Shown here one piece after another: positions 2,054-20,443 of a stretch of DNA of 29,226 nucleotides. Source of the DNA: a virus; the IMG/VR virus record IMGVR_UViG_3300042503_000153, positions 1-29,226 of that record. The stretch is one strand, 5' to 3'. The notes under the pieces were generated by a model, which was not told the DNA's origin, ran no database searches, and worked only from the letters and a program-made list of their open reading frames with translations. Each line of letters starts with the position of its first letter. Position 1 is the first letter of the stretch. The position numbers and the translations under genes are program-made.

Positions 2054-3220
2054 TCAAGCCTTGCCCTCGGCACCATCGCACGTCCTTGCATACGCCATGT
2101 GAAGCTCTGCCAGCCCGCCCTCTTGGGAATAGATAAATCCCTGCATCGCTCGCTCTGACCCAATAAAGCCAGACTCCACATGCCAAGCATCCGGCGGGAC
2201 GATAGTGGGATGGGTTCTGACGATGACTCCGTCAATCGTGCTGATCTCTGCCGCCTGGTGGTGCAGGTGCCCAACGTGCCATTCCCGGTGCCTGCACTTA
2301 GACCACAAGGACGACGCCTCAAGAGCCATAATTCCAGCGAGTTTCTTCTTTGCCTTGTCGCCGTGCGTGATGCCGATGAGGTTGCCGCCATGCGTCAGAT
2401 ACTTCCGGCTGGTGAACTCGCCGTTCACGGTCACGCGGCGGTCGTTGCGGTATCGCTCGATAAGGATTTTCTGGAGCGCAAAGCTGAGAGCAGAATCGTG
2501 ATTGCCGGGAACAATCAGCACGTCTGTTGCCACGGTCTCCGCTGAGTGTTCAACCGCTCGAAAGATTGCTGACGCGGCCGTGTCAATCGCTTTCTGTAGC
2601 CGAGAGTCTCGGTCAAGGTACGTGCCCGAGGTAGTCGTGCCCGATACCGTGTCGAAGTGCATCGTGTCGCCGGCCAGCACGATTGAACGCCTGACGACGT
2701 GCAGGGCGTTACCACGGTCGATCAGGTTTGCACTGGCCTTGGCAACGACTGCACTGGCGATGTTAAGGTCGTAGTCTGCCCCTGTCGTGTGCCGCCACGA
2801 CCGGCTGCCCATGTGCAGGTCGCTCATTACGACCACGCTCCACAAGCCATCACGTTGCCGCTTGTGGGCTTTGGCTAATGGCCGCCGCACATCCTTCTTT
2901 GCGGCGTCAATCATCGCCTGCACCACCTCGCGTGTTGTCGGCCCGCCTTTCGGCTTGAGCCTCACAAACACCCGGTGCAGTTCGATGCTGCCGCCTTCTC
3001 CGTCACCACACTCCCACTTGGTTGCCTCACTGGCAGCAATCTCGAAGCGGCTCATGTCCGCCTCAATGTGACGCAGCAAGTCCTCAACCGTCTTGATTCG
3101 CTTGCTGGTGGAGCGTGCCTCTAGCACGTCGCCGGATTGCGACTGCGTCACCTCTTCGGCGTCGGCCCGCTTGGTCGGCGGCACCTTGGCTTTGATTGCG
3201 TCGCCTATCTTCGCAGCCAT
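2054..3220 (-). CDS. Calcineurin-like metallophosphoesterase (SbcD/Mre11-style)
   Basis: 388 residues. The ATG at 3220 is chosen over an in-frame codon at 3253 because AAGGAGAT lies 7-8 bases upstream. The metal-binding motifs occur in the standard order: DLHMG at about residue 134, GDTMHFD at about 184, GNHD at about 239, THGDK at about 285 and GHLHH at about 317. These ligand two divalent metals in metallophosphoesterases. An N-terminal region of about 120 residues is charged, helical and unassigned. Likely substrates are DNA ends or other phosphodiesters; phage versions often sit near replication or structural genes with unclear roles. It overlaps the preceding small gene by 16 bases. Family assignment is secure, substrate is not known. 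Confidence 0.93.
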   Translation of the reverse strand: MAAKIGDAIKAKVPPTKRADAEEVTQSQSGDVLEARSTSKRIKTVEDLLRHIEADMSRFEIAASEATKWECGDGEGGSIELHRVFVRLKPKGGPTTREVVQAMIDAAKKDVRRPLAKAHKRQRDGLWSVVVMSDLHMGSRSWRHTTGADYDLNIASAVVAKASANLIDRGNALHVVRRSIVLAGDTMHFDTVSGTTTSGTYLDRDSRLQKAIDTAASAIFRAVEHSAETVATDVLIVPGNHDSALSFALQKILIERYRNDRRVTVNGEFTSRKYLTHGGNLIGITHGDKAKKKLAGIMALEASSLWSKCRHREWHVGHLHHQAAEISTIDGVIVRTHPTIVPPDAWHVESGFIGSERAMQGFIYSQEGGLAELHMAYARTCDGAEGKA

Positions 3221-3429
3221 AGGGAAATCTCCTTCCATCCAGCGACGAGCCACTTCCGCTCTGCGGCAGTCTCGGCTACCAGTTGACCGATCTCGCGTGC
3301 AGATGCAGCCCCGTAATCGCCAGACTGAAACCGGCGACGCACGTCCAGCAGCTGCTCCTGCACGTCAGGCGGCAGACGGTCGAGCCACGGCTTAGGGCCG
3401 GGCTTGATGCCACGCACGCGATCACGCAC
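3205..3429 (-). CDS. Small basic helical protein, unknown (possible DNA-binding)
   Basis: A frame of up to 107 residues is open here, but the part before 3429 lies over the end of the upstream gene and reads as its shadow. A GTG at 3429 overlapping the upstream TGA by 8 bases gives 74 residues. The protein has a KPWLDRLPPDVQEQLL segment, then a helix with AREIGQLVAE and a final KEISLWLRR. Short phage proteins with a WLDRLP start and a terminal helix ending in WL-R are often small DNA-binding or terminase-small-like proteins; this is only a resemblance. No clear Shine-Dalgarno precedes the GTG, so the start is uncertain. Confidence 0.6.
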   Translation of the reverse strand: MRDRVRGIKPGPKPWLDRLPPDVQEQLLDVRRRFQSGDYGAASAREIGQLVAETAAERKWLVAGWKEISLWLRR

Positions 3430-3607
3430 GGCGTCGGCTAGTGCGGCGACGCTTGGGCGTTTCGTCTTCACGCTCGGGCTCCTTCCCTTTGAGATGAATC
3501 CACCCGTCATCGTCTGGGATGCCGCCACCAGCGTGCTCCTCGTCGTCGTCCAACTCGGGCGGCAGGATCACCGCCTCGGTCTTCGGCTGTGGCTTGGTGC
3601 GTCCCAT
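3422..3607 (-). CDS. Small bipolar acidic/basic protein, unknown
   Basis: 61 residues, ATG at 3607, 21 bases after the previous stop. The middle is acidic (PPELDDDEEHAGGG, then DDDGW), and the C-terminus strongly basic (PKRRRTSRRR). It is likely disordered. No family is recognised. It sits between a zinc-ribbon-like protein and another small gene, and is kept because it fills an otherwise empty interval in the correct strand and is followed by an overlapping start. Confidence 0.55.
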   Translation of the reverse strand: MGRTKPQPKTEAVILPPELDDDEEHAGGGIPDDDGWIHLKGKEPEREDETPKRRRTSRRRA

Positions 3608-6252: not shown

Positions 6253-7139
6253 TAGACGTACCCCGTGCCTATGCCAAGCAGAGAGAAGTCTGAGTCTTTG
6301 TAGACCTTGGAAACGTAGACGGCTTTCGGTTGCTTGATTAGCGAAGAACCAGACACAGAGTCCTCATACCGCACCCACAGGTACTCGTGCCCTTTTTTCT
6401 CAACGCCGCTGATGCTGCCGATGGTCTGCCCTGTCACGTTCTTTGACGCCACGAAGCGATACGACAGCGACCACGGGCCTTTCCCCTTCTGGTCGTCCCA
6501 TTCCTGCGAGCCGCTGCAACCGAGGAAAAGAACCTCGCCAGCGTCAAACCCACGAAACGTGGCGTTGTTCGTCGTGCCAGTAATCCCAGCCAGTCCACGC
6601 ACATACGCAGCCGTCACGTACGCATTTGGCACGTCATAGCTTTCCTGCCACTGAAGCTGCGGCACGACAATGTCAACGCCGTTGACGCCGTTTGAATCGA
6701 CGCCGATAGCACCTGACATATTTGTGGCAGACGACGGGTATCGCTTCTCGAAGTCGAGCGTGCCGCCAGAGCCGACAGAGCACGCTTGCGTGATGTGCTG
6801 CGTTCCGCCCGTCGTGTCAAACGACCGAGCACGTTTCAGCGGGTCTGACGTTGAAGGCTCTGCACCAGCCTTCTCGTAGTTGATCGTGACTTGCCACGCA
6901 TTGTCGCCGAGGTACGCGACGCTGTATTGCTCCACCCACAGTTGAGCATCGTCGACGCCGGGATACTGCCAGCCGTAGCCGCCGCTACTGATCTGCTGGT
7001 TGATGTCAGCGTGCAGCACAGTGTCGTCTGCGGTGCCGAAAACCTTGTAGCTCTTCGTGTATGACGACGTCGCCTTCTTGCCACGCCGCACAATCGTCGC
7101 CTGACGTGAGTCGCCGTCTTCTACCCAAGTAAGTGCCAT
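6252..7139 (-). CDS. Tail protein following the tape measure (distal tail candidate)
   Basis: 295 residues; its ATG overlaps the tape measure stop as TAATG. The sequence is beta-rich without signal peptide or enzyme motif. The N-terminal half includes DDAQLWVEQYSVAYLGDNAW and DTTGGTQHITQA; the C-terminal half has GPWSLSYRFVASKNV and HEYLWVRYED. In long-tailed phages the gene directly after the tape measure usually encodes the distal tail protein or a tail-tip initiator, and the size is within that range. Family-level identification is not certain. Confidence 0.8.
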   Translation of the reverse strand: MALTWVEDGDSRQATIVRRGKKATSSYTKSYKVFGTADDTVLHADINQQISSGGYGWQYPGVDDAQLWVEQYSVAYLGDNAWQVTINYEKAGAEPSTSDPLKRARSFDTTGGTQHITQACSVGSGGTLDFEKRYPSSATNMSGAIGVDSNGVNGVDIVVPQLQWQESYDVPNAYVTAAYVRGLAGITGTTNNATFRGFDAGEVLFLGCSGSQEWDDQKGKGPWSLSYRFVASKNVTGQTIGSISGVEKKGHEYLWVRYEDSVSGSSLIKQPKAVYVSKVYKDSDFSLLGIGTGYV

Positions 7140-10100
7140 TACGCCGCCACCTTTCCGCCGTCGTCAATCTTGCGGGTGTTCTTAGCCGTTTCTTCCGCCG
7201 CCTTCGCCGTGCGTTCAGCGAGCGACGAGCCGCCAAATATCTGCCCGAGATTGGTTGACGAGAACGTGCCAGCCACTTCGCTCTTGCTTGTCGCAGAGTC
7301 AGCGCCAGCGGCACCAGCGCCCGCCGTCGCTGCCTTCTCGGAAGATGACGATGCCGCACTGGCGACGTTGACGCGAGAGAAAGCAGCGTAGTAGGCGTCG
7401 AGTAGTTTCGACTCCATCTCACTGCCCACGTTGCCACGCTCAATCAGTGCGTCCATGCTCGCGCCGATGTTTGAGATTTCATCAAGCGACGATGCAGAGC
7501 CGAGGGCGCTCAGTAGTTCAGCAGCGCTAGCAGCGTCTTTCCTGCGTTCACTTGCGCCGGTCGTGGCGTCGGACAACTTGCCCTCTGCCGCCTGCGTCGC
7601 AGCGCGACGGTCATCCGCCCGCTGCTGGTTCGCAACCTGCCTGCCGTCCTTCGTTGCCTGGGCGTCGTCTCGGATGGCTTGCTCTCTGTCCTTGCGTTCC
7701 TGCTCTGCCTGTGCGTTCTCTGCTGACGCCTTGCCCGTGCGGCCCTCAATGCCTGGACGCTCCTGCCGTCGCTGCTCTGCTCTCGCGGCGTTCTCGTCCC
7801 TAATCTTCTGCACTCGCTCTTTCGTGTCCTTCGCACCCGTGATGAATCCCTTCACCCTCGTCCATGCGATCTGTATGCCAGCCACGAGGTTGTCAAACGT
7901 CGCCATCACGCCGTTAGCGATGTTGTCAAAGAAGCCCATAATGAAGGCACCCATCGTGTTCAGCAGGGCAGCGGAGTCTGTATAAATCTTGTCCCACGCG
8001 ATGTAGATGCCCGAGCCGATGTCAGTGAATACGTCCTGAAACGCAGCCACCCACGGATCAACGTAGGACATCAACGCTTCGGTGCCACGCAGCCAGCCAG
8101 CGACAAGCCCGGCCCAGAGCACGTCCATCGCACCGGACAAGTCACCTGCGGCGACGGCTTCGTAGACTCCGTTGAAGGTGGTCGTGGCAGTCGTGGCGAG
8201 ATCTCCCAGGACGACAATTCCGTCAGAGATAGCCGTAGAAAAGCCGCCAGCAATCGCACTGCCAGCCTCAGAGACATAGCCAGCCAAGCCCGAGAACGCG
8301 CTGGAAAGCTGCGGGCCGAACTGCTTGACGGCGACGCCGACGCCTACAGCGGCAGCAGACAAAAGCAGAAGCGGTGCCAGAGGTGCGAGCCACGCAGCCG
8401 CTACCGCAGCAGCAGACGCCACAGAGCCAGCCACAGCCATTGCAGTGGCGGCGAGGTATGTGCCGATGCCAGCGACGGCAGAGCCGACGAATGCCGCCAC
8501 GCCACGAGCAGCCGAGCCGAGCCACGCCGCTGACATCGCAGCGGTTGACGCAATCGTCTTGCCGACAGCACCCGTGAGATTGGCGGCGTACTGTGCCATC
8601 CGTGCTGACGCACCCGTTGCCCACCACACGAAAGACTTGTAGGTGAGCGTCAGCCCGCCGACGATGTCGCCGACGAAGCGAGCCATGCCGGAACCAGACA
8701 CGGCAAACATCGCACCACGCAGAGCACTCGACGCCATCACGACGCCGTTGAGTCCTCGAATCGTTGCAGAAAAGAATCCAGCGCCAGCAGCGATTCCGCG
8801 ATTGAATCCCGTGAAGAACACCGGGAACATTGCCGCAGCAGCAGCCGAGGCGGCACCGCTCATCCGCACAAAGCCGGCTGCACTCGATGCGGCGAAGCCT
8901 GCCAACGCCGTGGTAGACGACGCCGCAAAGCCAGCCATCGCACTGCCAGCAGTTGCAGCGAACGATAGGACGGACGCTGACGCTCCCAGCATCGACGAGC
9001 CGATTGAGTTTGCGAGCTTAAGCGTTGCAGGCATCGCCAGCGCGAAGCTCTTGCCCACGCCAGTGACAGTGCCCATCAGCATCGTCAGCGGCGACAAGGC
9101 GAAAGCTGCCGCCTTGCCGATCCCAGCGAACCCGAACGAAGTCACCTGTAGCGAAATGCCAAGCCCGACCATTGCACTGCCGACCGCGACCGCAGCTACA
9201 GAGAACTGTGCAAACGCCGCGACCGCTTCCTTGTTGTCAGTCGCCAGCTTGGTCAGCCCGTCGATGAAGCCCGTGATGAACGGCACGACGCTGGCTAGAG
9301 CCGGTGCCACAGCGTCAGAGACGGCGATAGCCATACGCTGCAAAGCTGCGAGCACGTTGCCAGCCGAGCCAGCAAGGCCAGACATCATGACCTTGTACTT
9401 TTCGCTGACAGGAAGAGCTTTCTTCATCTTGTCAGACATCTTTGCGAAGCCTTCGCTTCCGACTTTTGTGAAGACGGCAGCGGCCCGCACGGCGTCAGAG
9501 CCAAATATCTCAGCCAGAAGTCGCTTTGCCTCGTCCGGTGCTTTTGAAGACAGTGCTTTGTTGAGCATGTCGAACATCTCTGGCATTGCCTTCATCTTGC
9601 CAGTGTTCAAGTCAATGAAGCTCTTCGCAGTCAGGCCGATTGAGTTGAGCGCACCTTCCGCCTCAGATGCCGGGTTGATCATCCGAAGGAACATAGACTT
9701 AAGCGATGTGCCTGCGTCTGATCCCTTGATTCCAGCAGCGCCGAGGAGTGCGATTGAGGTGGCGGTGTCTGACAGAGATTGGTCCGCAAGCTTCGCAACG
9801 GCAGACGCCTGCGAAAACGCTTGCACCATCTGCTCAATCGTGACGCTAGAAGAGTCCGCCGCAGATGACATGATGTTTGCCGCCTGGGCGGCAGTGCCAC
9901 CGAAGACGTTCATGATGTCAGTGAGAACTTCGGCAGCATCTCCAACGGCGACCTGCCCGACGCTGGCAAACTCCAGCGCAGACTTCCCGGCACCGCCTAG
10001 GACGTCTGGAAGTTCCATGCCAGCCTTCAGCAGCGCCAGCATCCCCTCCGCTGCGGCAGTCGGCCCAACGCCGAGAGCCTTCGACATATCCATCGCAGAC

Positions 10101-10372
10101 GCTTTGATTTGGTCGATCTGCGCCGATGTTGCGCCCGTGCTCGCCCGAATATTCAACAGCGTGGATTCAAACGCCGCACCCTGCTGCACGGCAGCGGCAA
10201 TCGGTGCCGCCATGCCAATGCCAGCAGCCGCGAGCCGCCCGCCACCCGAGGCGAGCGAGCGGCCCATATTGCCGAGCGACTTATTGACCTTGGTCAGTGC
10301 CGAGAAAAACTTCCTCGGATCGGCACCGATCTCGACAAATACGCCACCGGCTCTGACTGCTCCAGCACTCAT
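7139..10372 (-). CDS. Tail tape measure protein, TP901 type
   Basis: 1077 residues. It sets tail length and is threaded through the tail tube. The N-terminal part (about residues 1-310) shows typical TP901-family features: GADPRKFFSALTKVNKSLG, then MAAPIAAAVQQGAAFESTLL, then alternating Gly/Ala/Ser-rich helices such as DIMNVFGGTAAQAANIMSSA. Residues about 350-700 are strongly hydrophobic and alanine-rich, consistent with the membrane-active middle of tape measures. Residues about 840-980 are highly charged (Arg, Gln, Glu, Lys) and probably coiled coil. It starts in an ATGA overlap with the stop of the frameshifted chaperone product, the normal arrangement for this gene pair. Confidence 0.95.
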   Translation of the reverse strand: MSAGAVRAGGVFVEIGADPRKFFSALTKVNKSLGNMGRSLASGGGRLAAAGIGMAAPIAAAVQQGAAFESTLLNIRASTGATSAQIDQIKASAMDMSKALGVGPTAAAEGMLALLKAGMELPDVLGGAGKSALEFASVGQVAVGDAAEVLTDIMNVFGGTAAQAANIMSSAADSSSVTIEQMVQAFSQASAVAKLADQSLSDTATSIALLGAAGIKGSDAGTSLKSMFLRMINPASEAEGALNSIGLTAKSFIDLNTGKMKAMPEMFDMLNKALSSKAPDEAKRLLAEIFGSDAVRAAAVFTKVGSEGFAKMSDKMKKALPVSEKYKVMMSGLAGSAGNVLAALQRMAIAVSDAVAPALASVVPFITGFIDGLTKLATDNKEAVAAFAQFSVAAVAVGSAMVGLGISLQVTSFGFAGIGKAAAFALSPLTMLMGTVTGVGKSFALAMPATLKLANSIGSSMLGASASVLSFAATAGSAMAGFAASSTTALAGFAASSAAGFVRMSGAASAAAAAMFPVFFTGFNRGIAAGAGFFSATIRGLNGVVMASSALRGAMFAVSGSGMARFVGDIVGGLTLTYKSFVWWATGASARMAQYAANLTGAVGKTIASTAAMSAAWLGSAARGVAAFVGSAVAGIGTYLAATAMAVAGSVASAAAVAAAWLAPLAPLLLLSAAAVGVGVAVKQFGPQLSSAFSGLAGYVSEAGSAIAGGFSTAISDGIVVLGDLATTATTTFNGVYEAVAAGDLSGAMDVLWAGLVAGWLRGTEALMSYVDPWVAAFQDVFTDIGSGIYIAWDKIYTDSAALLNTMGAFIMGFFDNIANGVMATFDNLVAGIQIAWTRVKGFITGAKDTKERVQKIRDENAARAEQRRQERPGIEGRTGKASAENAQAEQERKDREQAIRDDAQATKDGRQVANQQRADDRRAATQAAEGKLSDATTGASERRKDAASAAELLSALGSASSLDEISNIGASMDALIERGNVGSEMESKLLDAYYAAFSRVNVASAASSSSEKAATAGAGAAGADSATSKSEVAGTFSSTNLGQIFGGSSLAERTAKAAEETAKNTRKIDDGGKVAA

Positions 10373-11108
10373 ACGTGTTTCTGCCAGTCTTTGCCAAAGA
10401 GGCGTTTCAGGTCATCAGGCGTCGCCTGTCTCGGCTTCGGTTTCTTTGCGTAAGGATTCAGCTTGCGAGGGTCTGCCTTCGGCGAGTTCTTGTCCCGGTT
10501 GATGTTTGCCTGCTGTGCCAGCAGGTTTGCCGTGTGCCACCAATCGTGCTCTAGGCGGCTGTCACGAGCGGCGAAGAGTTGTCTGACGGTCCACTCGCCT
10601 GGATAGACTCCGAGGATTCCTGCGGCTTCCCAGATGGCATCCCAGACGCTCCTGCGAGGCTCTCCACCGTCGCCTTCTCCAGACCCGCCTCCGCTCTGCC
10701 GAGCATCTCGTTTGCCACTTCGTCCATCTTGGACGCGAGAAGACCGATCATCTTGCGGAGGCGCTGCGGGAAAAAATCGACAAGTTCCTGCTCTAGCGCT
10801 TTCGTCGCAGCGTCCAGAGAATCGCCACGCAGACCGTCAAGGAAGTCTTCTCGCGACAGTCCCTTAGTCTCGACTTGCTTGGTCAGCAGTGCGTAGAGGA
10901 TCTCGCCAATCTTGGCGTACTGGCTACGCAGCACTTGGAACGTCTGCGAGATGTTCGCAGCGTCCACCATGTCGAGTGGCACAGCCTTCCGCTCGCCGGT
11001 CTCCTCGTCCACGACGTCAACGGTGACGTTGTCGCGGACACGCAGGGCAGAGGCGACGGTCAACGCCACCTGCCACGGTCTGCCTTGGTCGTCCCTGAAC
11101 TCACGCAT
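10369..11108 (-). CDS. Tail assembly chaperone, long isoform made by -1 frameshift (gpGT-like)
   Basis: Joined product: frame 0 from ATG at 11108 through codon 113 (Phe), then -1 frame from 10770 to a TGA at 10369-10371, about 246 residues in total. I translated the -1 frame by hand from 10770 to the stop; it has no stop codon. The trans-frame part begins with a Gly/Arg/Ser-rich linker, continues with SVWDAIWEAAGILGVYPGEW and TVRQLFAARDSRLEHDWWHT, and ends with DDLKRLFGKDWQKHV. The TGA overlaps the tape measure ATG as ATGA. Lambda and many other phages make gpG and gpGT in this way, both chaperoning the tape measure during tail assembly. The slippery site is listed separately. Confidence 0.92.
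10551..11108 (-). CDS. Tail assembly chaperone, short isoform (gpG-like)
   Basis: 185 residues when no frameshift occurs, ending at TAG 10551-10553. The N-terminus (MREFRDDQGRPWQVALTVAS) and the central helical part (ISQTFQVLRSQYAKIGEILY) are typical of small tail chaperones upstream of a tape measure. The residues after Phe113 (KMIGLLASKMDEVANEMLG, then a low-complexity Ser/Pro/Gly tail) overlap the -1 frame. It starts two bases after the last of the tail-tube-like genes. Role by analogy with lambda gpG: keeps the tape measure soluble and recruits tail tube subunits; not part of the mature virion. Confidence 0.9.
   Translation of the reverse strand: MREFRDDQGRPWQVALTVASALRVRDNVTVDVVDEETGERKAVPLDMVDAANISQTFQVLRSQYAKIGEILYALLTKQVETKGLSREDFLDGLRGDSLDAATKALEQELVDFFPQRLRKMIGLLASKMDEVANEMLGRAEAGLEKATVESLAGASGMPSGKPQESSESIQASGPSDNSSPLVTAA
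10770..10776 (-). promoter_or_regulatory. Programmed -1 ribosomal frameshift slippery site T TTT TTC
   Basis: On the minus strand the heptamer TTTTTTC lies with its phase exactly matching X XXY YYZ: the first T ends codon 111 (Asp), then TTT (112) and TTC (113). This is a canonical -1 slippery sequence. The -1 frame is open from here to a stop that overlaps the tape measure start. I could not identify a convincing downstream pseudoknot by eye. Confidence 0.88.
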
Positions 11109-11110
11109 GC

Positions 11111-11476
11111 CTACTCCCTCACTAGCCTAGGGTCGGTCATCTTGCCCTCAAGCGTGAAAGTCGCCACGCCATCCACCGGGTCGCTCTCGCTGATGCCTGT
11201 CATCACGGCGAGAAAAGAAAACCCAGCGGCACCGCCTGACACAGTGAACGTCCCGCCCGTGTGCATCTTCTGAAACGCCGTCCCGAGTCCAGATACGTCG
11301 TTCAGTTCCACACTCACCGTGCAGTCGTAGCCCGTGTTGTAGGTCGCCGCGTAGCGACTGCCGTACGGGTTGACGTCAATCGTGCGAGCCGACTCTGTCA
11401 GCGTGACGTTGCGAGCGCTGGCGATGTACCCGCCATCGAGAACGATGGAACAGTCTTTCCCCAGCGTGATCGCCAC
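11111..11476 (-). CDS. Tail-tube-like protein, paralogue 3
   Basis: 121 residues, GTG start at 11476 directly after the upstream TAA, with AAGGAG six bases before it. The protein opens with AITLGKD, has SARNVTLTESARTIDVNPYG and a C-terminal GGTFTVSGG plus SDPVDGVATFTLEG. The same layout occurs in the two genes just upstream, so the three are paralogues. All-beta composition, length and location before the tail chaperone and tape measure fit tail tube (major tail) subunits, which form the hollow tube of the tail. Which of the three is the main tube subunit cannot be told from sequence. Confidence 0.8.
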   Translation of the reverse strand: MAITLGKDCSIVLDGGYIASARNVTLTESARTIDVNPYGSRYAATYNTGYDCTVSVELNDVSGLGTAFQKMHTGGTFTVSGGAAGFSFLAVMTGISESDPVDGVATFTLEGKMTDPRLVRE

Positions 11477-11800
11477 TTAGAACTCCTTGGCTGTCACGTT
11501 GTAGGTGACTGCTCCGTCAACGCCGATGTTTTCCGACACGCTCATGATCGAAAACGAGCCAGCGGTGCCGGCTGCGTTCAGCGAGGTGATGAGCCCGTCA
11601 GGATCGTGGCACTCAATTTCCCAGGTCTTCGTCACGAAGCCCGCACGACTCACCCTGCGGCCAGGAACACCGGCAGAGCCGCCGACGTTGGATCGGTTTG
11701 AGATGTCAACCGTTTCGCATTCCTCGGTGAAGCTCGCCGAGATGATGCCTTCGCCGAACGGAGGAGCGGACGCTGCGTCTTTTCCGAGAGAAATAGCCAT
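11477..11800 (-). CDS. Tail-tube-like protein, paralogue 2
   Basis: 107 residues, ATG at 11800 with an AAGGAAA ribosome-binding sequence upstream. It begins AISLGKD like its neighbours, but the following part has diverged (APPFGEGIISASFTEECETV and GGSAGVPGRRVSRAGFVTKT), and the C-terminus keeps the pattern GSFSIMSVSENIGVDGAVTY. It is the most divergent of the three. It could be a specialised ring, such as a tube-initiating or terminating subunit, or a second tube subunit; inference only. Confidence 0.78.
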   Translation of the reverse strand: MAISLGKDAASAPPFGEGIISASFTEECETVDISNRSNVGGSAGVPGRRVSRAGFVTKTWEIECHDPDGLITSLNAAGTAGSFSIMSVSENIGVDGAVTYNVTAKEF

Positions 11801-11824
11801 GTGAGAATTTCCTTGTGTGAGTGG

Positions 11825-12157
11825 TTAGGCGCTGACCGTGCGAGAGCCCGACACAGTGAAGGTGATAATTCCGTCGAGCGGCTGGCTCTGACCAATGTTG
11901 GTGCAGATGTACGTCGCGTTTCCTGTCTGCGTGCCGCTGATGGTGAACGTCCCGCCGATGCTGACGCCGGGAGCGTCCACGCACTCAAGCTCAATCGTCT
12001 GCTCGATAAGAGCTTTCCTGAACTTGCGGGAAGTGTCACCGAACTTCGTGACGTCAACGTCTGACGCCGAGTTGGTGACGGTGCAGGAGCGAGCGTTTGC
12101 AACGCCCGTAATAGTCACGTCTTTGCCGAGCGTGATCTCAACTGAGCCAATTGGCAT
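11825..12157 (-). CDS. Tail-tube-like protein, paralogue 1
   Basis: 110 residues, ATG at 12157 with GAGAGGG six bases upstream. It opens with GSVEITLGKD, has NARSCTVTNSASDVDVTKFG and ends with GGTFTISG and PLDGIITFTVSG, aligning well with the gene at 11111-11476 across its length. It is all beta. It is the first gene after the 91-base intergenic segment that contains the 16-base repeated element, so it may head its own transcript. Role: probable tail tube subunit. Confidence 0.8.
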   Translation of the reverse strand: MPIGSVEITLGKDVTITGVANARSCTVTNSASDVDVTKFGDTSRKFRKALIEQTIELECVDAPGVSIGGTFTISGTQTGNATYICTNIGQSQPLDGIITFTVSGSRTVSA

Positions 12158-12230
12158 TTGGTGCCCTCTCGTGTGCGAGTGCCAGCGGTGCGGCTGGTTC
12201 GCTCACGGTATGGGCAGCAGGGCGGAATCT

Positions 12231-12246
12231 AGACCGGGTATGCCGT
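12231..12246 (-). repeat. 16-bp intergenic repeat, copy 2
   Basis: ACGGCATACCCGGTCT on the minus strand, three bases after the stop codon of the tail-completion gene at 12249 and about 75 bases before the start of the first tail-tube-like gene. An identical 16-mer lies at 26683-26698, also just after a stop codon. Weaker similarity continues for about 20 more bases on the downstream side. The rest of the 91-base gap shows no clear promoter or hairpin by eye. Confidence 0.7.
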
Positions 12247-12248: not shown

Positions 12249-13076
12249 CTAGTTTCTCGCCAGCATGTTTCGCCACTTCTCGTTAGCCTTCGCCACGGCG
12301 GCGTCAACTCGCTTTGAGCCAGCCATAAACGGGCGGGCTGGGTAGCGAGCCATGCGGGTGATGCTCGTCTTCTCCCAGTTGCGGCTGTAGCGGAAGCCGC
12401 CCTTGTCGATGACCCACTGGAGAGCACCGTATTCGTACTGGTTCCTCTGCGGACCGAGGCTTTGTCCCTTGGTGAAGCGACCGCTGGCGTCACGACCGGC
12501 ACCGCTCCTGCCTGCCTGCTTTCGTAGGTACGCATTCCTTGCAGCACCGACGCCGATACGCCACGCCGTCTGCTTCACCGTGCCGCCCATCTGGTGCAGC
12601 TGTGCCAGCCAGGGCTTCGTCTTGTACGTGCCAATCACAGCCGTCATGCGGGCAGGATCAAGCTGGTAAATGATGTCTTTGTAAAACCACCTCTTTGGAG
12701 CCCAAGACTTGATTGGATTTCCTGCTGCCCTTGGCTCTCCCGACCCGTACGCAGTAATGTCCAAATACAGACCACCGACAAACTCCACTGGCTTTCCGCG
12801 CCCCAGACGCTTTCTCGCTGCCGCTGATGTCCTCGGCCTAGTCTGGCCGATGCCCTTCTTCGCCTCTTGCATGATGTCTCTGCCAAGCAAGGACAACACT
12901 CTTGCGTTCATCTTGCCGATTAGCCTTGTGGCCTTGGGCTTGTCAAAGAAGTTGCCGCGAATGCTCGCCCGCAGCTGGAGCCTTCCGAGAGTCGCCGCAG
13001 ACATCTCGCGGCGATTGCCGCCGACCATGCCGGGACGGATAAACGCCCGACTCATGCCAGAAAGCATCGACGGCAT
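12249..13076 (-). CDS. Tail completion / virion morphogenesis protein (HK97 gp10-like)
   Basis: 275 residues. AGGAGG lies 5 bases before the ATG at 13076. The protein is strongly basic. The C-terminal segment (YPARPFMAGSKRVDAAVAKA, then a helix to the end) is the characteristic close of HK97 gp10-type and phage virion morphogenesis proteins, which cap or complete the tail and neck. The centre carries TAAYG-like and Lys/Arg-rich parts, including RWFYKDIIYQLDPARM and HQMGGTVKQTAWRIG. Its neighbours, a tail terminator-like gene upstream and tail tube genes downstream, support the assignment. Confidence 0.8.
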   Translation of the reverse strand: MPSMLSGMSRAFIRPGMVGGNRREMSAATLGRLQLRASIRGNFFDKPKATRLIGKMNARVLSLLGRDIMQEAKKGIGQTRPRTSAAARKRLGRGKPVEFVGGLYLDITAYGSGEPRAAGNPIKSWAPKRWFYKDIIYQLDPARMTAVIGTYKTKPWLAQLHQMGGTVKQTAWRIGVGAARNAYLRKQAGRSGAGRDASGRFTKGQSLGPQRNQYEYGALQWVIDKGGFRYSRNWEKTSITRMARYPARPFMAGSKRVDAAVAKANEKWRNMLARN

Positions 13077-13085: not shown

Positions 13086-13547
13086 CTAGACAGTCGGCAG
13101 CACGTTCGTCTCGAACACTCGATACGTCGCCGTGATCACGGCACGCCAGACGTTCCGCTCCGTCAGTGCGTCGTCGGGATTTAAGTCGATGCTGACCGTC
13201 TGCGGGCTGGTCACGCCAGCCGGCCACGTTACCGCTTGCCCGAACGAATGGGCACGCACGTAGAGCATGACGCTGTCAGCCAGGTCAAGCATGCCATCCA
13301 CTTCAGCGTCAGTCGTGACGTGACGCCCGACGAAGACTGTGACGGTGTAATCGACTTGCATCACTTGGCGGCTGATGCGTGACACGTCAGCATTGCCAGG
13401 CACGACGAACACGCGGGGCACGCTCATGGCGTCTACGTCAATGTTCGCCCAGTTGCGACGCTCGACCGTGGTTGACGGAATCTCCCACGTCACGGAATCT
13501 AAGCCCGTGGCGAGGCTGTCGGCGATAGTGCGAAGGACGCTGCTCAT
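13086..13547 (-). CDS. Tail terminator / minor tail protein candidate
   Basis: 153 residues, ATG at 13547, GGAG 7 bases upstream. The fold looks alpha/beta, with SRQVMQVDYTVTVFVGRHVT then a helix LDLADSVMLYVRAH and a final strand WRAVITATYRVFETNVLPT. Strand-helix-strand proteins of this length before gp10-like and tail tube genes are commonly tail terminators (lambda gpU-like). The assignment rests on length, fold pattern and gene order, not on a diagnostic motif. Confidence 0.75.
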   Translation of the reverse strand: MSSVLRTIADSLATGLDSVTWEIPSTTVERRNWANIDVDAMSVPRVFVVPGNADVSRISRQVMQVDYTVTVFVGRHVTTDAEVDGMLDLADSVMLYVRAHSFGQAVTWPAGVTSPQTVSIDLNPDDALTERNVWRAVITATYRVFETNVLPTV

Positions 13548-13548: not shown

Positions 13549-13674
13549 TCACCACTCCACTGCTAGTGTTCGCTGGACAGCCCATCGCATGAACGCCGCC
13601 GTAGTGCGTGCCGCCATCACGCCCGCTGCAAGCGAGAACGTGATGAGAGCAGCGAGGAAGATGGAGTCTCTCAC
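13549..13674 (-). CDS. Small single-helix membrane protein, 41 residues
   Basis: A GTG at 13674 shares its G with the upstream TAG (TAGTG), and AGGA lies about 10 bases before it. The frame reads MRDSIFLAALITFSLAAGVM, then MAARTTAAFMRWAVQRTLAVEW in continuation, and ends with TGA at 13549-13551, one base before the next ATG. Residues 5-20 form a hydrophobic helix, followed by a basic amphipathic tail. It fills the only larger hole in this part of the operon. Function unknown; single-helix phage peptides can be lysis-related or virion-membrane peptides. Confidence 0.6.
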   Translation of the reverse strand: MRDSIFLAALITFSLAAGVMAARTTAAFMRWAVQRTLAVEW

Positions 13675-14702
13675 TAGACGTTCCTGCTGAGAGTTGTCTG
13701 GAACGCCTGCACGGCGGAATTGACGGCAGTTACTTCCGAGCCAGACAGAGATTCCGACAGGAACACAAATGACTGCTCGCGGTTTGAGTGCAAGCTTGGG
13801 CCATCGGTATGGTTCTGTGCGCCTATGTAGAGCGGGCGGTTTGGTAGGTCGGTGGTGATGTCCGACGATGCCCCGGACGCCACTGAATTGCCGTTTCGGT
13901 AGACCGTCATCAGCGAAGTGCTTGTCCGCGAGACGACATGGAACCCAGTTACACTACCGACGGTCGACGTGGCAACTGTTACGCGATTCCGCCAGTCGTA
14001 GTACGAATTGCCGTCGGTTGATCCAATATGCTGGAGAAATCGGTTGCTCGTTGGGTCGGAGAAAAACTGAGCACCCATGTCCACTCGATACCCAGTCGAA
14101 GATGCTGGGTTTGTGCGCAGATACAGGCCGTATGCGCCTGTGTAGTCGCTAAAAAACGTGGATGGCACGGCGAACGTATTGGCATATGCCGTGCTGCCAT
14201 CTGGAGTGGCCCCCGTTGCGGAGTGCGTCCAGTTGCCTGAAAACGCCAGTCGATAGGCGGCGTCCAAGTCTCGCGGGTCTTTGAGGTTCCATTTGTGAGT
14301 CGATGCCGTGCCGCCGATGAACGGGTAAATCGCGCGCATTTTTGACCAGACGCCCGCGCTCTTCAGCGATCCGACGAGCGTCCCTATAGCAGATGACTGT
14401 GTTGCGTCCGTGATGCCCGCCGCTGTCAGGAACGCAGTGGCGTCAGAGTCCCACGTACTCAACGCTGTACGTACCCACGTATTCGGAGCCGTGCAAACGT
14501 AGAAATACCCAGACGAGTCATACGCTATCCGCCCCGCCGTCCCGCTCGCCGTCGCTGAGGCTGGCACGGATGACCACGACAGGCCAGAGCCGCCGCTCGC
14601 AGCGACGAGTTCCCAAGTGTTGCTGCCAGCGTAGCGGTACTCTCGCCCGTTTTGAGTTGACGTCGCACCCACTGAAGGGTTGGATGGGAATGAGAATGGC
14701 AT
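13674..14702 (-). CDS. Receptor-binding tail protein with LamG-like C-terminal domain
   Basis: 342 residues. Residues 1-35 (SNPSVGATSTQNGREYRYAG) form a short beta module common in fibre proteins. A second module at about 40-85 contains SGTAGRIAYDSSGYFYVCTA followed by a Trp-rich end. A helical part (SAIGTLVGSLKSAGVWSKMR) leads to a large beta domain with YPFIGGTASTHKWNLKDPRD, GYRVDMGAQFFSDPTSNRF and a strand carrying TVYRNGNSV, which is the pattern of laminin-G/concanavalin-like lectin folds. Such domains bind carbohydrate, so a receptor-binding role is likely. It is the last large gene of the adhesin cassette. Confidence 0.8.
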   Translation of the reverse strand: MPFSFPSNPSVGATSTQNGREYRYAGSNTWELVAASGGSGLSWSSVPASATASGTAGRIAYDSSGYFYVCTAPNTWVRTALSTWDSDATAFLTAAGITDATQSSAIGTLVGSLKSAGVWSKMRAIYPFIGGTASTHKWNLKDPRDLDAAYRLAFSGNWTHSATGATPDGSTAYANTFAVPSTFFSDYTGAYGLYLRTNPASSTGYRVDMGAQFFSDPTSNRFLQHIGSTDGNSYYDWRNRVTVATSTVGSVTGFHVVSRTSTSLMTVYRNGNSVASGASSDITTDLPNRPLYIGAQNHTDGPSLHSNREQSFVFLSESLSGSEVTAVNSAVQAFQTTLSRNV

Positions 14703-14705
14703 GAC

Positions 14706-15068
14706 TTAGTTTTCCCCTTCGATTTCGACCCACGCAAGCGTTGGCTCGTCCCATGAGTATTGTTTTTCATCCGTCGGCATCGGAGTCGGTGCTTGCCAAT
14801 CGTGATTCGCGTCGAGCGACCATGACGGAAACGGCCTCTGCGAGACAAAAACGTCCGCATCCGCTTCATACCGATAGCCGATTCCTGCGAACCGCTTGCG
14901 GATGCTGCCGCTGTAGCTGGTCTGCACCCATCTCCCGCCGAGCAACGACTCGCAGAAAGCGATGCCCTTTGCCTCGCTCTCCACGCCGTTGTCGATCAAT
15001 TCCGCGTTGGCGACGACGATCACCTGTGTCACCACGTTTTCGTCGTTGAGTTGTGCGAAGTGTGCCAT
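14706..15068 (-). CDS. MAHxA-family small structural protein, copy 2
   Basis: 120 residues, starting MAHFAQLNDENVVTQVIVVA. The middle has LLGGRWVQTSYSGSIRKRFA and continues into AGIGYRYEADADVF, ending in a Trp-rich tail. The family is common in marine and freshwater phages, next to tail fibre genes, with unknown function. A paralogue lies at 19293-19589; both follow a polyglycine-rich fibre gene. Copy 2 has about 20 additional residues at the C-terminus. Confidence 0.78.
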   Translation of the reverse strand: MAHFAQLNDENVVTQVIVVANAELIDNGVESEAKGIAFCESLLGGRWVQTSYSGSIRKRFAGIGYRYEADADVFVSQRPFPSWSLDANHDWQAPTPMPTDEKQYSWDEPTLAWVEIEGEN

Positions 15069-15070
15069 GA

Positions 15071-16633
15071 CTAGAACGTGATGCTCCCGCTGCCCGTGAA
15101 TGTGTAGATCGTGTAGCTACCACTAGTCGTGACCGTTGGCGATCCGGTGGTTGCTGCTGCTGCTGCCAGCGTGCGAATGATCACGACGCCAGAACCGCCG
15201 GTGCCGCCGAACTCTGAGTAACTGCCATTGCCGCCGCCGCCGCCGCCGCCCGATCCGGTGTTGACGCCGCCGCTGCCGCCATACCCCCATTGCGCCGAGT
15301 TACCGTCGCCGCCGCCGCCCGATCCGCCCGATCCGGCGGCAACGCCTTGCTGGCTGCTGCCGCCGCCACCTCCAGCGCGATAGACCGCAGAGCCGGTAAT
15401 GCTGCTAGACCGCCCCGCTCCACCGTGCCCGCTGGCACCATTGGCGAGGGTCGGTGCAGCGGCACCTGCGCCGCCGCCGCCGCCGCCGCGAAGACTCTCA
15501 TTCCAATAATTGGCTGGGCTTCCCTTGGCACCGGCATAACCCTGACCACTGACGCCAGAACCCTCGCCGTCGATGTAGTTACCAGACGAGCCGCCACCAG
15601 AACCGCCGTTTCCAGCGGCGAAGCCTGACCTTGCGCCAGACCCGCCCCCGTATGCCAACGCGGCGAGGAACGACGAATTGCCGCCGCTTGCCCCGATTCC
15701 CTCTGTAATCGGTGCAGGCGGCGCACCGCCGCCCACGATGACCGTGTACGCCTGACCGGAGTTTACCGTCACGGACGCGGCTTCAAGGTAGCCGCCTGCG
15801 CCGCCGCCGCCGCCGCCGTGATTGTATCCGCCGCCGCCGCCGCCAGCGATGACTAGGTAATCGATCACGCCGGGTGCGGTTGGCGTTGCCGCACTGCTCG
15901 CCGTCGACCACGCACCTTGGCCGAGCGCGTTCACGGCCGCGACACGGAAAGTGACCGACGTGCCGTTAGCTAGTGCCGTCTTTGTGTAACTGGTGCTTGT
16001 TGATCCGGTGCTGACGGTGGATGCCGATCCACCCGATGGGGTCCATTCGACAACGTACCCAGTAATCGGCGTTTGCGATAGGACAGCGGGTGCCGTCCAT
16101 GAAACGGTCGCCTGTGCATCGCCAGCCGTCGCAGTGACGCTCGTCGGTGCACCGGGAACGAACAGCGCACGCAGCACCGAGTCGCCAGTTGCAGAAAGCA
16201 CCCCGTCGCTGATTGTCAGGCCCGAACCAACCTTGACACCACCAAGCTCGCTTGCCGTTGCGGCGGCGAGCGTGAACGAGCTACCGCTACCACCACCGCC
16301 AGACGTTCCTGCCTCAACGTAGACGCCGCTTGCGTCCCAGAAAAAGATTCGACGCACATCAGTCGCGTGGTACAAGGTGCCGACACTACCCACTGCCGGG
16401 AAGCCCGCCGCCGTCGATGCCTCAACGATGTTCGCGGAGCCGCCGCCGCCGCTTGAGCCGCCACTGCCGCCGCCACCACCGCCTAGCGTCACCGACTGAA
16501 CCGAGCCGTCAGCCGCTTTGACAAACACGATGCCGTCAGCCCAATTGACGGCGAACTCATGCGACCCAAGCTCTGCCGCAGTTGGCGTGACGCCAGCGGT
16601 ATAGCTTCGCTTTACTTTTTGGCGGTTTGGCAT
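15071..16633 (-). CDS. Modular tail fibre with FnIII and polyglycine domains
   Basis: 520 residues. The N-terminal module (residues 1-50, ELGSHEFAVNWADGIVFVKA) resembles the tropism-determinant-type fibre N-terminus. A Gly/Ser linker follows, then a beta module AAGFPAVGSVGTLYHATDVR with FFWDASGVYVEAG, shared with the gene at 20773-21120. A short ELGGVKVGSGLTISDGVL element comes next, then a fibronectin type III domain at about 155-250 (PGAPTSVTATAGDAQATVSW, ending in AATP). The C-terminal 260 residues are extremely glycine-rich, like the polyglycine sandwich adhesin domains of T-even gp38. It ends in a beta strand rich in Thr. The likely role is receptor recognition. Confidence 0.85.
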   Translation of the reverse strand: MPNRQKVKRSYTAGVTPTAAELGSHEFAVNWADGIVFVKAADGSVQSVTLGGGGGGSGGSSGGGGSANIVEASTAAGFPAVGSVGTLYHATDVRRIFFWDASGVYVEAGTSGGGGSGSSFTLAAATASELGGVKVGSGLTISDGVLSATGDSVLRALFVPGAPTSVTATAGDAQATVSWTAPAVLSQTPITGYVVEWTPSGGSASTVSTGSTSTSYTKTALANGTSVTFRVAAVNALGQGAWSTASSAATPTAPGVIDYLVIAGGGGGGYNHGGGGGGAGGYLEAASVTVNSGQAYTVIVGGGAPPAPITEGIGASGGNSSFLAALAYGGGSGARSGFAAGNGGSGGGSSGNYIDGEGSGVSGQGYAGAKGSPANYWNESLRGGGGGGAGAAAPTLANGASGHGGAGRSSSITGSAVYRAGGGGGSSQQGVAAGSGGSGGGGDGNSAQWGYGGSGGVNTGSGGGGGGGNGSYSEFGGTGGSGVVIIRTLAAAAATTGSPTVTTSGSYTIYTFTGSGSITF

Positions 16634-16634
16634 G

Positions 16635-18863
16635 TCACGACACCGTGAGTGTTGCGGGCTGGCTCGTCACGCTCGACGCATTCGCTGCCGACACGACTAC
16701 GCGGAAGCGGTCGAGGTGGTCGGCGTTACTTGTCAAGCCGGTCAGGGCGAGCGTGGATGATGTCGCACCGGAGACGTTGGCAAAATCAGACTGACCTGAG
16801 AGTGTGATCGTCGCTGCGATGCTGCTGTTGTACGCCACAGTGGCGAACGTGCTGCCGCCGTAGGCGACGGCCTGCCAGCTTGCGGTTGCAGGCAGCGTCC
16901 TCTGCGTCCATGAGATGCCGTCAGTGCTTGTCGCTGCGATGTTGCCGCTAGCGGCTACTGCGACAAATGTGCCGCCTCCATAGGTGACGCTAGTCCAGCT
17001 TGTGGCTACAGGCAGCGTCCGCTGCGTCCAAGTGATGCCGTCAGGGCTCGTAGCCGCGACTGCGCTACCGAAAACCACAGCGACAAACGTGCCGTTGCCA
17101 TGCGTGACGCTTTGCCAGTTCGCGATCGCTGGCAGCGTCCTCACCGTCCATGTAATTCCGTCAGTGCTAGTCGCTGCGAGACTGTAGCCGTTAGCGACTG
17201 CGACGAATGTGCCGCCGCCGTAGGTAACGTGCGTCCACCCCGCGTTCGCAGGCAGCGTCCGCTGCGTCCATGTAATTCCGTCAGTGCTAGTCGCCGCGAT
17301 ACCGCCAGCGACTGCGACGAATGTGCCGCCGCCGTAGGTAACGTGCATCCACGCCGCGTTCGCAGGCAGCGTCCGCTGCGTCCATGTAATTCCGTCAGTG
17401 CTTGTCGCTGCGGTACTGCTGAGATACGCCAACGCTACAAATGTTCCGCCACCGTAAACGACACTGTACCAATCCGCGCTCGCAGGCAGCGTCCGCTGAG
17501 TCCAAGCGATTCCATCGGTGCTGGTGGCTGCGACTGCACCAACAGCCACGGCGGCAAACGTGCTGTTACCGTATGCAACGCTGTACCAGTTCGCACTCGT
17601 AGGCAGCGTCCTCTGCGTGGCAGCGAAACCCGCCGAATCGCTCTTCTGCCACTGATAGCTCAACGTGCCGCTCGGCTCTGCAATCGCAGTCACCGCGAAC
17701 GTCGCCGCACCACTACTTGCCGTCTGGTTCGTCGGTGGCGACGTGATCGTGATCGACCGTGACAGGCCGCTGGTGCCGTAAAACCAACCGCCGTCGATGT
17801 CGTCGTCTGCGCCAAGGCCACCCGCCGCAGACCACACACCGTCACCTCGCAGGAACGTCGAGGCTGACGCGGTGCCGGAACTGCCAAGCTGGGCGAGGGT
17901 CACGTCGCCCGTGCGACCTGCCACGCTCTGCACAGGTGCCGCCGCCGCAGCGCGGACAGTCGTGTGGTAAAGGTTGACGCTGCCCTCGGTCACGCTGTCC
18001 GTCGAGCCAGGAGACGGCGAGATTTCAATGAACGCAGAGCCAGACCATCGGTAAATTTTGTTGGTATTTGCACCCGTTGATACGACGTAGATTTTCCCAA
18101 CGTCGCCGCTGGCTGGCAGCGTTCCGCCAACGTCCACCACGTCGTCAACGAATGACGGGAGATTAGCGGACGGAACGAGGTTGTTTACCAGCGTGGCGTA
18201 AGTGCCTGCCGCCTGCTTGCCGTCCAACGCAGTCTGCAAGCCAGTGACGTCGCTCACGGCGTGAACGTGGGCAGAGGGAGCGAATGTGCTTGGTATTCCA
18301 GAGAGCGACGAATAGGTGATTGAGCCAACCGCGTGGACGTGGTCTGCCCGCGCCGCAGTCAGTGCCGTCCCGGCGGACGCCGTCCCGAGCGGCTGCGGTG
18401 TCTCGTCCGCGAGGTTGACCGGCGGGCCAGCTGGGCCAGCGGCTCCGGTTGCGCCCGTGGCTCCGACGGGGAGCACCAGATTCAAAGTCTGCGACGGTGC
18501 TGCTCCCGTGATCGTGGCGCTGGCTGACGATCCGCTCGCAACCGTACCGATACTGAGCGAGTTAGCAGGCCCAGTATCCCCAACGCCGCCCGTGGCACCA
18601 ACGCCGCCCGTGGCTCCCGTGGCACCTACAGGCAGTACAAGATTGAGCGTCTGCGACGGGGCCACGCCGGTGATCGTTGCCGACGCAGAAGCACCGCTAG
18701 TAACGGTTCCTATGGCGAGGGAGTTGGCAGGCCCAGCAACTCCCTGCGTCCCACTAGGGCCACGCTCGCCGCTAGGATTGACCGTGACGTTGACCGTGTC
18801 GCCGTTGCCGACAGTCGGATTGATCGTCGTTGAGCCGACGACTGTGACGGAAATCTCACTCAT
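16635..18863 (-). CDS. Long tail fibre with collagen-like stalk, Ig-like domain and seven inserted propeller repeats
   Basis: 742 residues from ATG 18863, which overlaps the upstream TGA as ATGA (a GTG at 18887 is less likely). Layout: beta N-terminus (1-35); a near-identical duplicated 46-residue unit with VLPVGATGATG collagen-like ends (about 44-142); two HVH motifs (175-177 and 199-201), as in metal-binding needle regions of trimeric fibres; a common fibre module (about 215-350) including PSFVDDVVDV and KIYRWSGSAF; the first half of an Ig-like domain (about 370-410); seven repeats of about 39 residues (416-685) with consensus W-x-x-V-x-Y-G-G-G-T-F-V-A-V-A and AATSTDGITWTQRTLP; then the second half of the Ig-like domain (about 690-742). 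Confidence 0.88.
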   Translation of the reverse strand: MSEISVTVVGSTTINPTVGNGDTVNVTVNPSGERGPSGTQGVAGPANSLAIGTVTSGASASATITGVAPSQTLNLVLPVGATGATGGVGATGGVGDTGPANSLSIGTVASGSSASATITGAAPSQTLNLVLPVGATGATGAAGPAGPPVNLADETPQPLGTASAGTALTAARADHVHAVGSITYSSLSGIPSTFAPSAHVHAVSDVTGLQTALDGKQAAGTYATLVNNLVPSANLPSFVDDVVDVGGTLPASGDVGKIYVVSTGANTNKIYRWSGSAFIEISPSPGSTDSVTEGSVNLYHTTVRAAAAAPVQSVAGRTGDVTLAQLGSSGTASASTFLRGDGVWSAAGGLGADDDIDGGWFYGTSGLSRSITITSPPTNQTASSGAATFAVTAIAEPSGTLSYQWQKSDSAGFAATQRTLPTSANWYSVAYGNSTFAAVAVGAVAATSTDGIAWTQRTLPASADWYSVVYGGGTFVALAYLSSTAATSTDGITWTQRTLPANAAWMHVTYGGGTFVAVAGGIAATSTDGITWTQRTLPANAGWTHVTYGGGTFVAVANGYSLAATSTDGITWTVRTLPAIANWQSVTHGNGTFVAVVFGSAVAATSPDGITWTQRTLPVATSWTSVTYGGGTFVAVAASGNIAATSTDGISWTQRTLPATASWQAVAYGGSTFATVAYNSSIAATITLSGQSDFANVSGATSSTLALTGLTSNADHLDRFRVVVSAANASSVTSQPATLTVS
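16809..17618 (-). repeat. Seven tandem repeats of about 114-120 bp encoding propeller-like blades
   Basis: Seven units, each encoding TLP-x5-W-x-x-V-x-[YH]-G, then GTFVAVA and AATSTDGITWTQR. At DNA level the blades around 17241-17288 and 17355-17402 share an identical 48-base block (114 bases apart), with nearly identical flanks, while other blades have drifted. This suggests recent duplication of at least one blade within an older array. Confidence 0.85.
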
Positions 18864-19240
18864 GCGCCGGGTGCCCTCGGAATGCACGATCCCGCGAGGA
18901 TCGTCCTAGTCATCGTCGTGCTAGGTGTGATCCATCGCAGAAACCAGAGGTACTTGATTGCAGGGCTCAACGCTGCCGTCTGCGTTTCGGTGAGACTCCA
19001 GATAACTGACCCTGTGGACGCTGTCACGACCTGGATCGTCGGCGTTGCAGCAGTTGTGCCAACCGTAGACACAGTGCCGCCGCCGCCGCCCTGAAAGCCG
19101 CCAACACTTGCCACATAGATGCCCGATTGCAGCGTGTAGCCAGTGATCGACTGCCCTAGGTTCATGGCGATATTGACCTCGTCGCCCACCACGAAAGTGA
19201 CGTCAAGTTGGCCTGGCAGCAAAGAGAAGACGTTGGACAT
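18860..19240 (-). CDS. Ig-like/BppU-like small structural protein
   Basis: 126 residues; ATG at 19240 with GAGGTG 5-6 bases upstream, stop overlapping the next start. The sequence is beta-rich: LPGQLDVTFVVGDEVNIAMN, then a Gly-rich turn, then TGSVIWSLTETQTAALSPAI and YLWFLRWITPSTTMTRTILA. The order of strands and the closing of the type 'L-R-x-L-x-G' resembles N-terminal Ig-like domains of upper baseplate or fibre-anchoring proteins. Probably connects fibre proteins. The 52-base gap upstream holds only the ribosome-binding site. Confidence 0.7.
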   Translation of the reverse strand: MSNVFSLLPGQLDVTFVVGDEVNIAMNLGQSITGYTLQSGIYVASVGGFQGGGGGTVSTVGTTAATPTIQVVTASTGSVIWSLTETQTAALSPAIKYLWFLRWITPSTTMTRTILAGSCIPRAPGA

Positions 19241-19292
19241 CGCGGCACCTCGTGGCTGGCATTGTCACGGCGACGAGCAGCACAGCGACCGG

Positions 19293-19589
19293 CTATGCCT
19301 GCACCCACGTTCCCGTCTCCTCGTCCAGCACCCATCCCTCGCCTGGGCAAGGCGGCACGAAGGCGTCAATGTCCTCTCGGTACTCGTAGCCTATGCCAGC
19401 GTAGTTCAGCCGGAACGGCGCGCCGCCGTCGCGGTGCTGTCCTGCTTGCGTGTGATAGCTCGTGCGTAGACACCGTTGCCCGCGCATCTCGGCGTAGTGC
19501 TTCTCCCAATCGACGCCTTCGTTTTCGTCGCGTCCGACGATTACCTCGGTGACGATGTTCTGCTCGTCGAGAAATGCGTAGTGCGCCAT
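19293..19589 (-). CDS. MAHxA-family small structural protein, copy 1
   Basis: 98 residues, ATG overlapping the stop of the upstream polyglycine gene as TAATG. It begins MAHYAFLDEQNIVTEVIVGR and shares with its paralogue at 14706-15068 the central TSY, the run LNYAGIGYEYREDIDAFV and the final WVLDEETGTW. Function unknown; always seen beside fibre genes in related environmental phages as far as I recall. A fibre chaperone or a small fibre-tip subunit are both possible. Confidence 0.78.
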   Translation of the reverse strand: MAHYAFLDEQNIVTEVIVGRDENEGVDWEKHYAEMRGQRCLRTSYHTQAGQHRDGGAPFRLNYAGIGYEYREDIDAFVPPCPGEGWVLDEETGTWVQA

Positions 19590-20443
19590 TAAAAAAACGT
19601 CACCGTGCCGGTGCCTCCCGTGATAGTCACGATTTCGTCACCCCCTGAAAACGTGATAGAGGATGCGAGACCCGCTGAGATTGTGACTCCGAGAGCCGCG
19701 CTAAATCGCAAGATGACGACGCCAGAGCCGCCAGCCCCACCAGCACCCGAGGAACCGCCCCCGCCGCCGCCGCCGCCAGTGTTGAGAGAGCCCGCAACGC
19801 CAGTAGTCGAGGTTGCCGTGCCGCCGTTGCCGCCGCCACCAGAGCCGCCAACAGCCGCTGTGCTGCCGATGGCAGTGCCACCACCGCCGCCGCCTGCGTA
19901 TGTCGATCCTGTCGTGAGCGACGACGCCTTGCCCGCGCCGCCAGCACCGCCGCGATTGGACACACCGACAGATCCTGCCGCCGCCGCGCCGCCTCCGCCG
20001 CCGCTGTAGTTGGCACTGAAACCAACGGCTCCAGCGTTGCCCTGGCCAACGGTGGCACCAGCAACAAGGTTTGCGTAAGAGCCGCCACCAGATCCGCCAA
20101 CAAAGCCCATGCCGTCTCGTTGGTTTGTTCCAGAATTTACGGAACGTGTCCCACCGAATCCGCCGCCGACGCTAATGATGCCGCCGAAGCTTGACGGTGA
20201 TCCGAGTGCGGCGCGAGTGTCGATAGAGGACGACGCCGCACCGCCGGCACCGATGCTGACGCTGTAGCTAGTGCCCAGCGTGATGCCAATCTGCTGTTCC
20301 TGCCAACCGCCGCCGCCGCCGCCTCCACCCATAAAGCCGCCGCCGCCGCCGCCGCCGACAACCAAGACGTTTACGATGCGGCTAATTCCAGCACGCAGCC
20401 GCGAGGCACTCGCCAACGACGTGGAGGCGTATCGCTGCGTCAT
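19589..20443 (-). CDS. Polyglycine-rich adhesin protein
   Basis: 284 residues, ATG in an ATGA overlap with the upstream stop. A short N-terminus (about 25 residues) leads to NVLVVGGGGGGGF, and about 220 residues then consist of long Gly runs separated by short Ser/Ala/Thr strands. The C-terminus is a Thr/Gly-rich beta end (TFSGGDEIVTITGGTGTVTF). This composition matches glycine-rich adhesin domains with polyglycine type II packing, used for host recognition. It corresponds to the C-terminal half of the 520-residue fibre at 15071-16633 without that gene's N-terminal modules. Confidence 0.82.
   Translation of the reverse strand: MTQRYASTSLASASRLRAGISRIVNVLVVGGGGGGGFMGGGGGGGGWQEQQIGITLGTSYSVSIGAGGAASSSIDTRAALGSPSSFGGIISVGGGFGGTRSVNSGTNQRDGMGFVGGSGGGSYANLVAGATVGQGNAGAVGFSANYSGGGGGAAAAGSVGVSNRGGAGGAGKASSLTTGSTYAGGGGGGTAIGSTAAVGGSGGGGNGGTATSTTGVAGSLNTGGGGGGGGSSGAGGAGGSGVVILRFSAALGVTISAGLASSITFSGGDEIVTITGGTGTVTFF

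Follow-up and report, generated by a model that had tools for sequence, protein, structure and literature searches.

Three genes in the tail-tube slot

The window analysed here, a 29,226-nucleotide stretch of viral DNA, carries on its minus strand three small neighbouring genes, which we call A, B and C in their order of transcription (Table 1). Their open reading frames have the coordinates given in the original prediction; gene C starts with GTG, and the ribosome-binding sites of A and B are good. Codon bias is modest and gives no sign that the three genes are expressed more strongly than their low-copy neighbours.

The order of the surrounding genes is that of a siphophage tail module and is kept in relatives: terminator and completion genes, then A-B-C, then G/GT and the tape measure. 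For the probable terminator, the match of a relative (L264) to the tail terminator family phrog_123 covers nearly the full length (E 0.006). Gene G encodes 185 aa and is overlapped by an open reading frame in the −1 frame that ends at the start of the tape measure; in 3 of the 13 relatives examined, this frame opens only at the heptamer TTTTTTC. Gene G, the −1 frame and the heptamer form the classical G/GT chaperone arrangement. Because the terminator and completion genes lie upstream, and G/GT and the tape measure downstream, A-B-C occupy the position where one tube gene normally sits. Among the 20 proteins scanned from the window, itself a fragment, none matched a sheath family. We rejected A or B as the terminator, since a separate terminator-like gene is present.

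Table 1. Features of the tail region and their coordinates in the window
Feature	Coordinates	Strand	Description
Conserved leader upstream of A	12158..12242	−	Hairpin 12175-12202; nearly invariant in close clade
Gene A, tube-fold paralogue 1 (putative)	11825..12157	−	110 aa; homologous to C
Gene B, tube-fold paralogue 2 (putative)	11477..11800	−	107 aa; homology to C and A (profile comparison)
Gene C, canonical tail tube protein (predicted)	11111..11476	−	121 aa; AlphaFold2 model, phrog_1407
Probable tail terminator (T)	13086..13547	−	Position; L264 relative matches phrog_123
Tail completion / Neck1-like protein (K)	12249..13076	−	phrog_26, E 0.001
Tail assembly chaperone G	10551..11108	−	Position between tube and tape measure; −1 frameshift architecture
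Slippery heptamer TTTTTTC, G to GT −1 frameshift	10770..10776	−	In phase, 13/13 relatives examined
−1 frame ORF, T part of GT	10372..10836	−	Open across G end up to tape measure start
Tape measure protein	7139..10372	−	1077 aa; phrog_1533 E 2e-58, PF10145 E 5e-34

Paralogy of A, B and C

In single BLASTP comparisons, A and C share 36% identity (E 9e-17), while B resembles C with an E value of 1e-4 and A with one of 2e-4. Profile-profile alignment with hhalign, using about 33 relatives per profile, gave E values of 2.5e-14 for A-C over 102 columns, 2.9e-9 for B-C and 9e-8 for A-B. These pairs scored 45 to 83, whereas the best of 100 column shuffles reached 20 and reversed profiles scored 9 to 12. 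When the profiles were enlarged with more distant members, the values became 3e-20 (A-C), 5e-12 (B-C) and 2e-14 (A-B), and hidden Markov models (HMMs) of each family match nearly all members of the other two. Chance resemblance was rejected because the shuffled controls score far lower. The original prediction had described three tandem paralogous genes, all beginning with I-[TS]-LGKD and ending in a (P)V/L-D-G-x-[IA]-T-[FY] strand; an LGKD start and a D-G-x-x-T-(Y/F) end are present in all three alignments, and the paralogy is upheld by BLASTP as well as by profile comparison against shuffles. As judged from their sequences, A, B and C are confirmed as real, homologous genes.

Predicted fold of C and its relation to A and B

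The tail-tube fold consists of a sandwich of eight strands, flanked by a helix, in which the β2-β3 hairpin is extended (PMC9022992). An AlphaFold2 model of C, moderately reliable at a mean pLDDT of 61, shows seven strands and one helix in tail-tube order, with an unstructured loop of 21 residues (29-49) between strands, so that a β-sandwich with a flanking helix and a long β2-β3 loop can be recognised. Searched with Foldseek, the model is most like PDB chains from the neck and virion structures of the Rhodobacter gene transfer agent, from the phage 812 neck, the monocin and lambda tail tubes, 80alpha and the tail tube protein of R4C; its best BFVD matches are for the most part major tail proteins and phage proteins without a name. 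The family phrog_1407, annotated as major tail protein, matches C with an E value of 4e-4 and distant members of the C family weakly. By its predicted structure, C is a tail-tube-fold protein.

Gene A aligns with C over its full length, apart from a 7-residue gap across the predicted helix of C; the domain-wide homology to a tube-fold protein is thus retained while the flanking α-helix is lacking. Its own PHROG match to a major tail protein is weak (E 0.024). In the corresponding alignment B keeps the helix and lacks the stretch matching one strand of C. The region equivalent to the β2-β3 ring-stacking loop is the most conserved part of A, and B keeps that region too. Because both are homologous to C, A and B are probably tube-fold proteins that depart from the canonical fold, A in its helix and B in one strand. 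The label 'tail-tube-like' that had been given to all three therefore holds directly for C, whose predicted fold matches tail-tube proteins, and for A and B by way of their homology to C; the model of B is poor (pLDDT 49) and matched no fold. A direct sequence search of the PDB with the profiles of A, B and C returned nothing credible.

Copy number in relatives

In the first set of relatives, A-B-C was found at 159 of the 165 loci with a match, and the remaining loci run off the end of their contig. A search with the tape measure of L127, a divergent relative, reached far more distant phages. Iterated HMMs identified exactly A-B-C at 258 loci in IMG/VR, corresponding to 103 distinct triplets, and partial sets at 13 loci, every one of them at a contig end; 12 further distant loci all carry A-B-C as well (12/12). 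This survey of IMG/VR yielded no clade member with one, two or four copies, contig ends excepted. Identity to the copies in the window falls as low as 44% for A, 40% for B and 33% for C among these triplets, and in all relatives listed the three are separate open reading frames with their own starts and stops.

Where phages outside the clade carry related tape measures (L283, L289, L290, L293, L220 and L222), a single gene of tube size fills the slot, and some of these genes match tail-tube families weakly. Their similarity to A, B and C is not significant beyond shuffled controls and they are equated with them by slot, so the view that one gene became three is drawn from position. The expectation that three diverged tail-tube-like paralogues stand where one gene is normal thus finds support in the fold of C, the homology of A and B, the tube slot and the single gene of outside phages; on the question of how many copies relatives carry, the answer from the 103 distinct triplets was invariably A-B-C. 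A tblastn search with C against 50,697 phage records gave no match even at E 10, and scanning bacterial and archaeal genomes with the profiles of A and of the tape measure found no relative. In one further phage (L305), two tandem paralogous genes of a different family, each of about 116 aa, lie at 2712-3065 and 3087-3434, just upstream of its tube-like gene.

Divergence, selection and covariation

B and C are each resolved cleanly in a maximum-likelihood tree of 72 sequences (100/100), and the A sequences form a coherent set. This topology places the two duplications before the radiation of the clade, and a recent duplication was rejected on the same tree. Within the close clade, dN/dS is 0.16 for A, 0.18 for B and 0.15 for C, values that indicate purifying selection on each of the three genes. 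Tape measures in the same set of phages fall to 22% identity and range from 677 to 1126 aa in length, and the A-B-C set stays constant. The tape measure has been exchanged repeatedly, as a module.

Protein distances within the close clade separate the genes of the module into groups. Those of A and B are correlated (r 0.63, P 5e-4), as are those of the completion protein, chaperone and tape measure among themselves (r 0.44-0.46, P 5e-4). A-B-C lie between the completion gene and the chaperone and tape measure, yet they do not share in this covariation; A-C and B-C distances follow none of the three, be it tape measure, G chaperone or completion protein. In the close clade C shows no correlation with A or B, and at larger distances the correlation is r 0.64-0.67.

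Roles of the three proteins

We put at about even the chance that these genes form a triplicated tail-tube module whose shaft contains more than one kind of subunit. In its more specific form, a non-contractile siphophage shaft in which, throughout the clade, two or three tube proteins of ancient divergence are arranged in a fixed way, the proposal is tentative and falls somewhat short of even. An ancestral phage would have had a single tail tube protein in the slot, and two duplications before the clade radiated would have produced A, B and C, all kept since. All three would be virion proteins: C would form hexameric rings stacked around the tape measure, and A and B, whose strongest covariation is with each other, would supply rings of the same tube, whether as alternating or segmental rings or as A/B heteromers. 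The tape measure could then be exchanged without change in A-B-C, since these would only line the tube. A role in the shaft is favoured because the three proteins are independent of the type of tape measure, of the chaperone and of the completion protein, and because a separate terminator exists; their constancy while the tape measure changes in length and identity speaks for a mixed shaft. The homology of the three genes, the predicted tube fold of C, the fixed order and number of copies, the age of the duplications, the purifying selection and the A-B covariation also count in its favour. Against it stand the models, which match the tube fold for C only, the helix missing from A and the strand apparently missing from B, and a codon bias no higher than that of low-copy neighbours. 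The lack of correlation between C and either A or B in the close clade is also unlike what intimate mixed rings predict, although their interfaces may be frozen. In contractile systems, moreover, additional paralogues with the tube fold are known to serve as single rings at the tube end (PMC8894135).

In such an arrangement C or A would alone make the shaft, and each of the other two would contribute one hexameric ring at the tip or neck, comparable to the tube-initiator layers of contractile machines; this is a real possibility to which we give a clearly smaller probability. The arithmetic would equal that of AlgoCIS, where Alg1 forms the tube and Alg5 and Alg7 the initiator layers, all of one fold (PMC8894135); specialised end rings might also depart from the canonical fold as A and B do, and C covaries weakly with D (r 0.27, P 0.02 uncorrected), which points the same way. 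However, end rings contact the ends of the tape measure, and neither A nor B covaries with it, with the chaperone or with the completion protein. The roles of terminator and completion protein are already filled by other genes and do not call for A or B, and all three genes sit in the tube slot, away from the tip genes, which follow the tape measure. With the evidence on the roles of A and B being indirect, we moderately favour a heteromeric shaft over single end rings. It is improbable that A, B or both decorate the outside of a tube made of C, as might be suggested by their being trimmed versions of the fold and by their covarying with each other and not with C in the close clade: both retain the region equivalent to the long ring-stacking loop, and the known tail decorations of siphophages are Ig-like or C-terminal extensions, not copies of the tube fold. 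Least probable of all is that A and B are outside the virion, as assembly factors or remnants of duplication. Their place in the virion is putative, and the modest codon bias would suit a role outside it; but neither gene is lost or broken in any of the 103 distinct triplets, and their low dN/dS and good ribosome-binding sites speak against it.

Comparison with known tails

The canonical siphophage tube proteins (lambda gpV, SPP1 gp17.1, the roseophage R4C tail tube protein and the tail tube of RcGTA) are like C in predicted fold, and their genes occupy the same slot before G/GT and the tape measure; at 130 residues, the R4C protein is also close to C in size. These phages have one tube gene, in contrast to the three separate homologous genes found here, of which A is without the helix and B apparently without one strand. 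SPP1, with its two major tail proteins, has more than one tube species in a virion, as this phage may have; its second form, gp17.1*, is a lengthened form of gp17.1 from the same gene, whereas here the genes are separate and diverged. Three proteins of one tube fold serve in one machine in T4 (gp19, gp54 and gp48). They do so likewise in AlgoCIS, as Alg1, Alg5 and Alg7 (PMC8894135). Both of these machines are contractile and have a sheath, whereas here sheath matches are absent from the 20 proteins scanned, and A, B and C lie side by side in the tube slot. In T5, the tube domain of pb6 is tandemly duplicated within one chain, so that a ring contains more than one type of domain (PMC9022992). 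The duplication is a likeness, but in T5 the duplicates are fused and form trimers, whereas A, B and C are three free genes, with no two tube domains joined in one polypeptide. Fused tube domains in T5 (PMC9022992) and tube-fold initiator rings in contractile systems are thus already known, and three tandem tube genes in a siphophage are a variant for which we found no report in the open-access literature.

The usual description of a long non-contractile tail has a single tube protein repeating along the shaft. The tails of these uncultured environmental phages may contain more than one. Their clade has diverged widely and exchanged its tape measure repeatedly, yet retains three tube paralogues, and so offers a natural test of a heteromeric shaft, as well as of co-evolution between tube, tape measure and chaperone. 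Because the tape measures of relatives differ so widely in length, the ratios in which A, B and C occur could show which of them belong to the shaft and which to end rings.

Leader of gene A and other features of the window

The leader upstream of A is non-coding, ends in a ribosome-binding site and has no match in Rfam. In the close clade it is more conserved than the synonymous sites of genes, and its predicted fold has a z-score of −3.9. Its hairpin occurs in one exact copy in the window, and the stem hardly varies, which makes covariation uninformative. Distant relatives often have a hairpin of different sequence at the same place, and in one of them (L263) it pairs the Shine-Dalgarno sequence. 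The segment CATACCCGGTCT of the leader recurs exactly at 26683-26694 on the minus strand, just before the GTG start of a 78-aa gene between terminase and portal, and is possibly a shared regulatory site.

Elsewhere on the minus strand, protease and major capsid protein are apparently fused in one 604-aa open reading frame at 23186-25000 (phrog_4523, phrog_3244, PF25209). A block of fibre- or adhesin-like genes at 13674-21995 (−) sits between the genes for head and neck, not behind the tape measure gene; it is glycine-rich, with collagen-like GATG repeats and WTQRTLP repeats.
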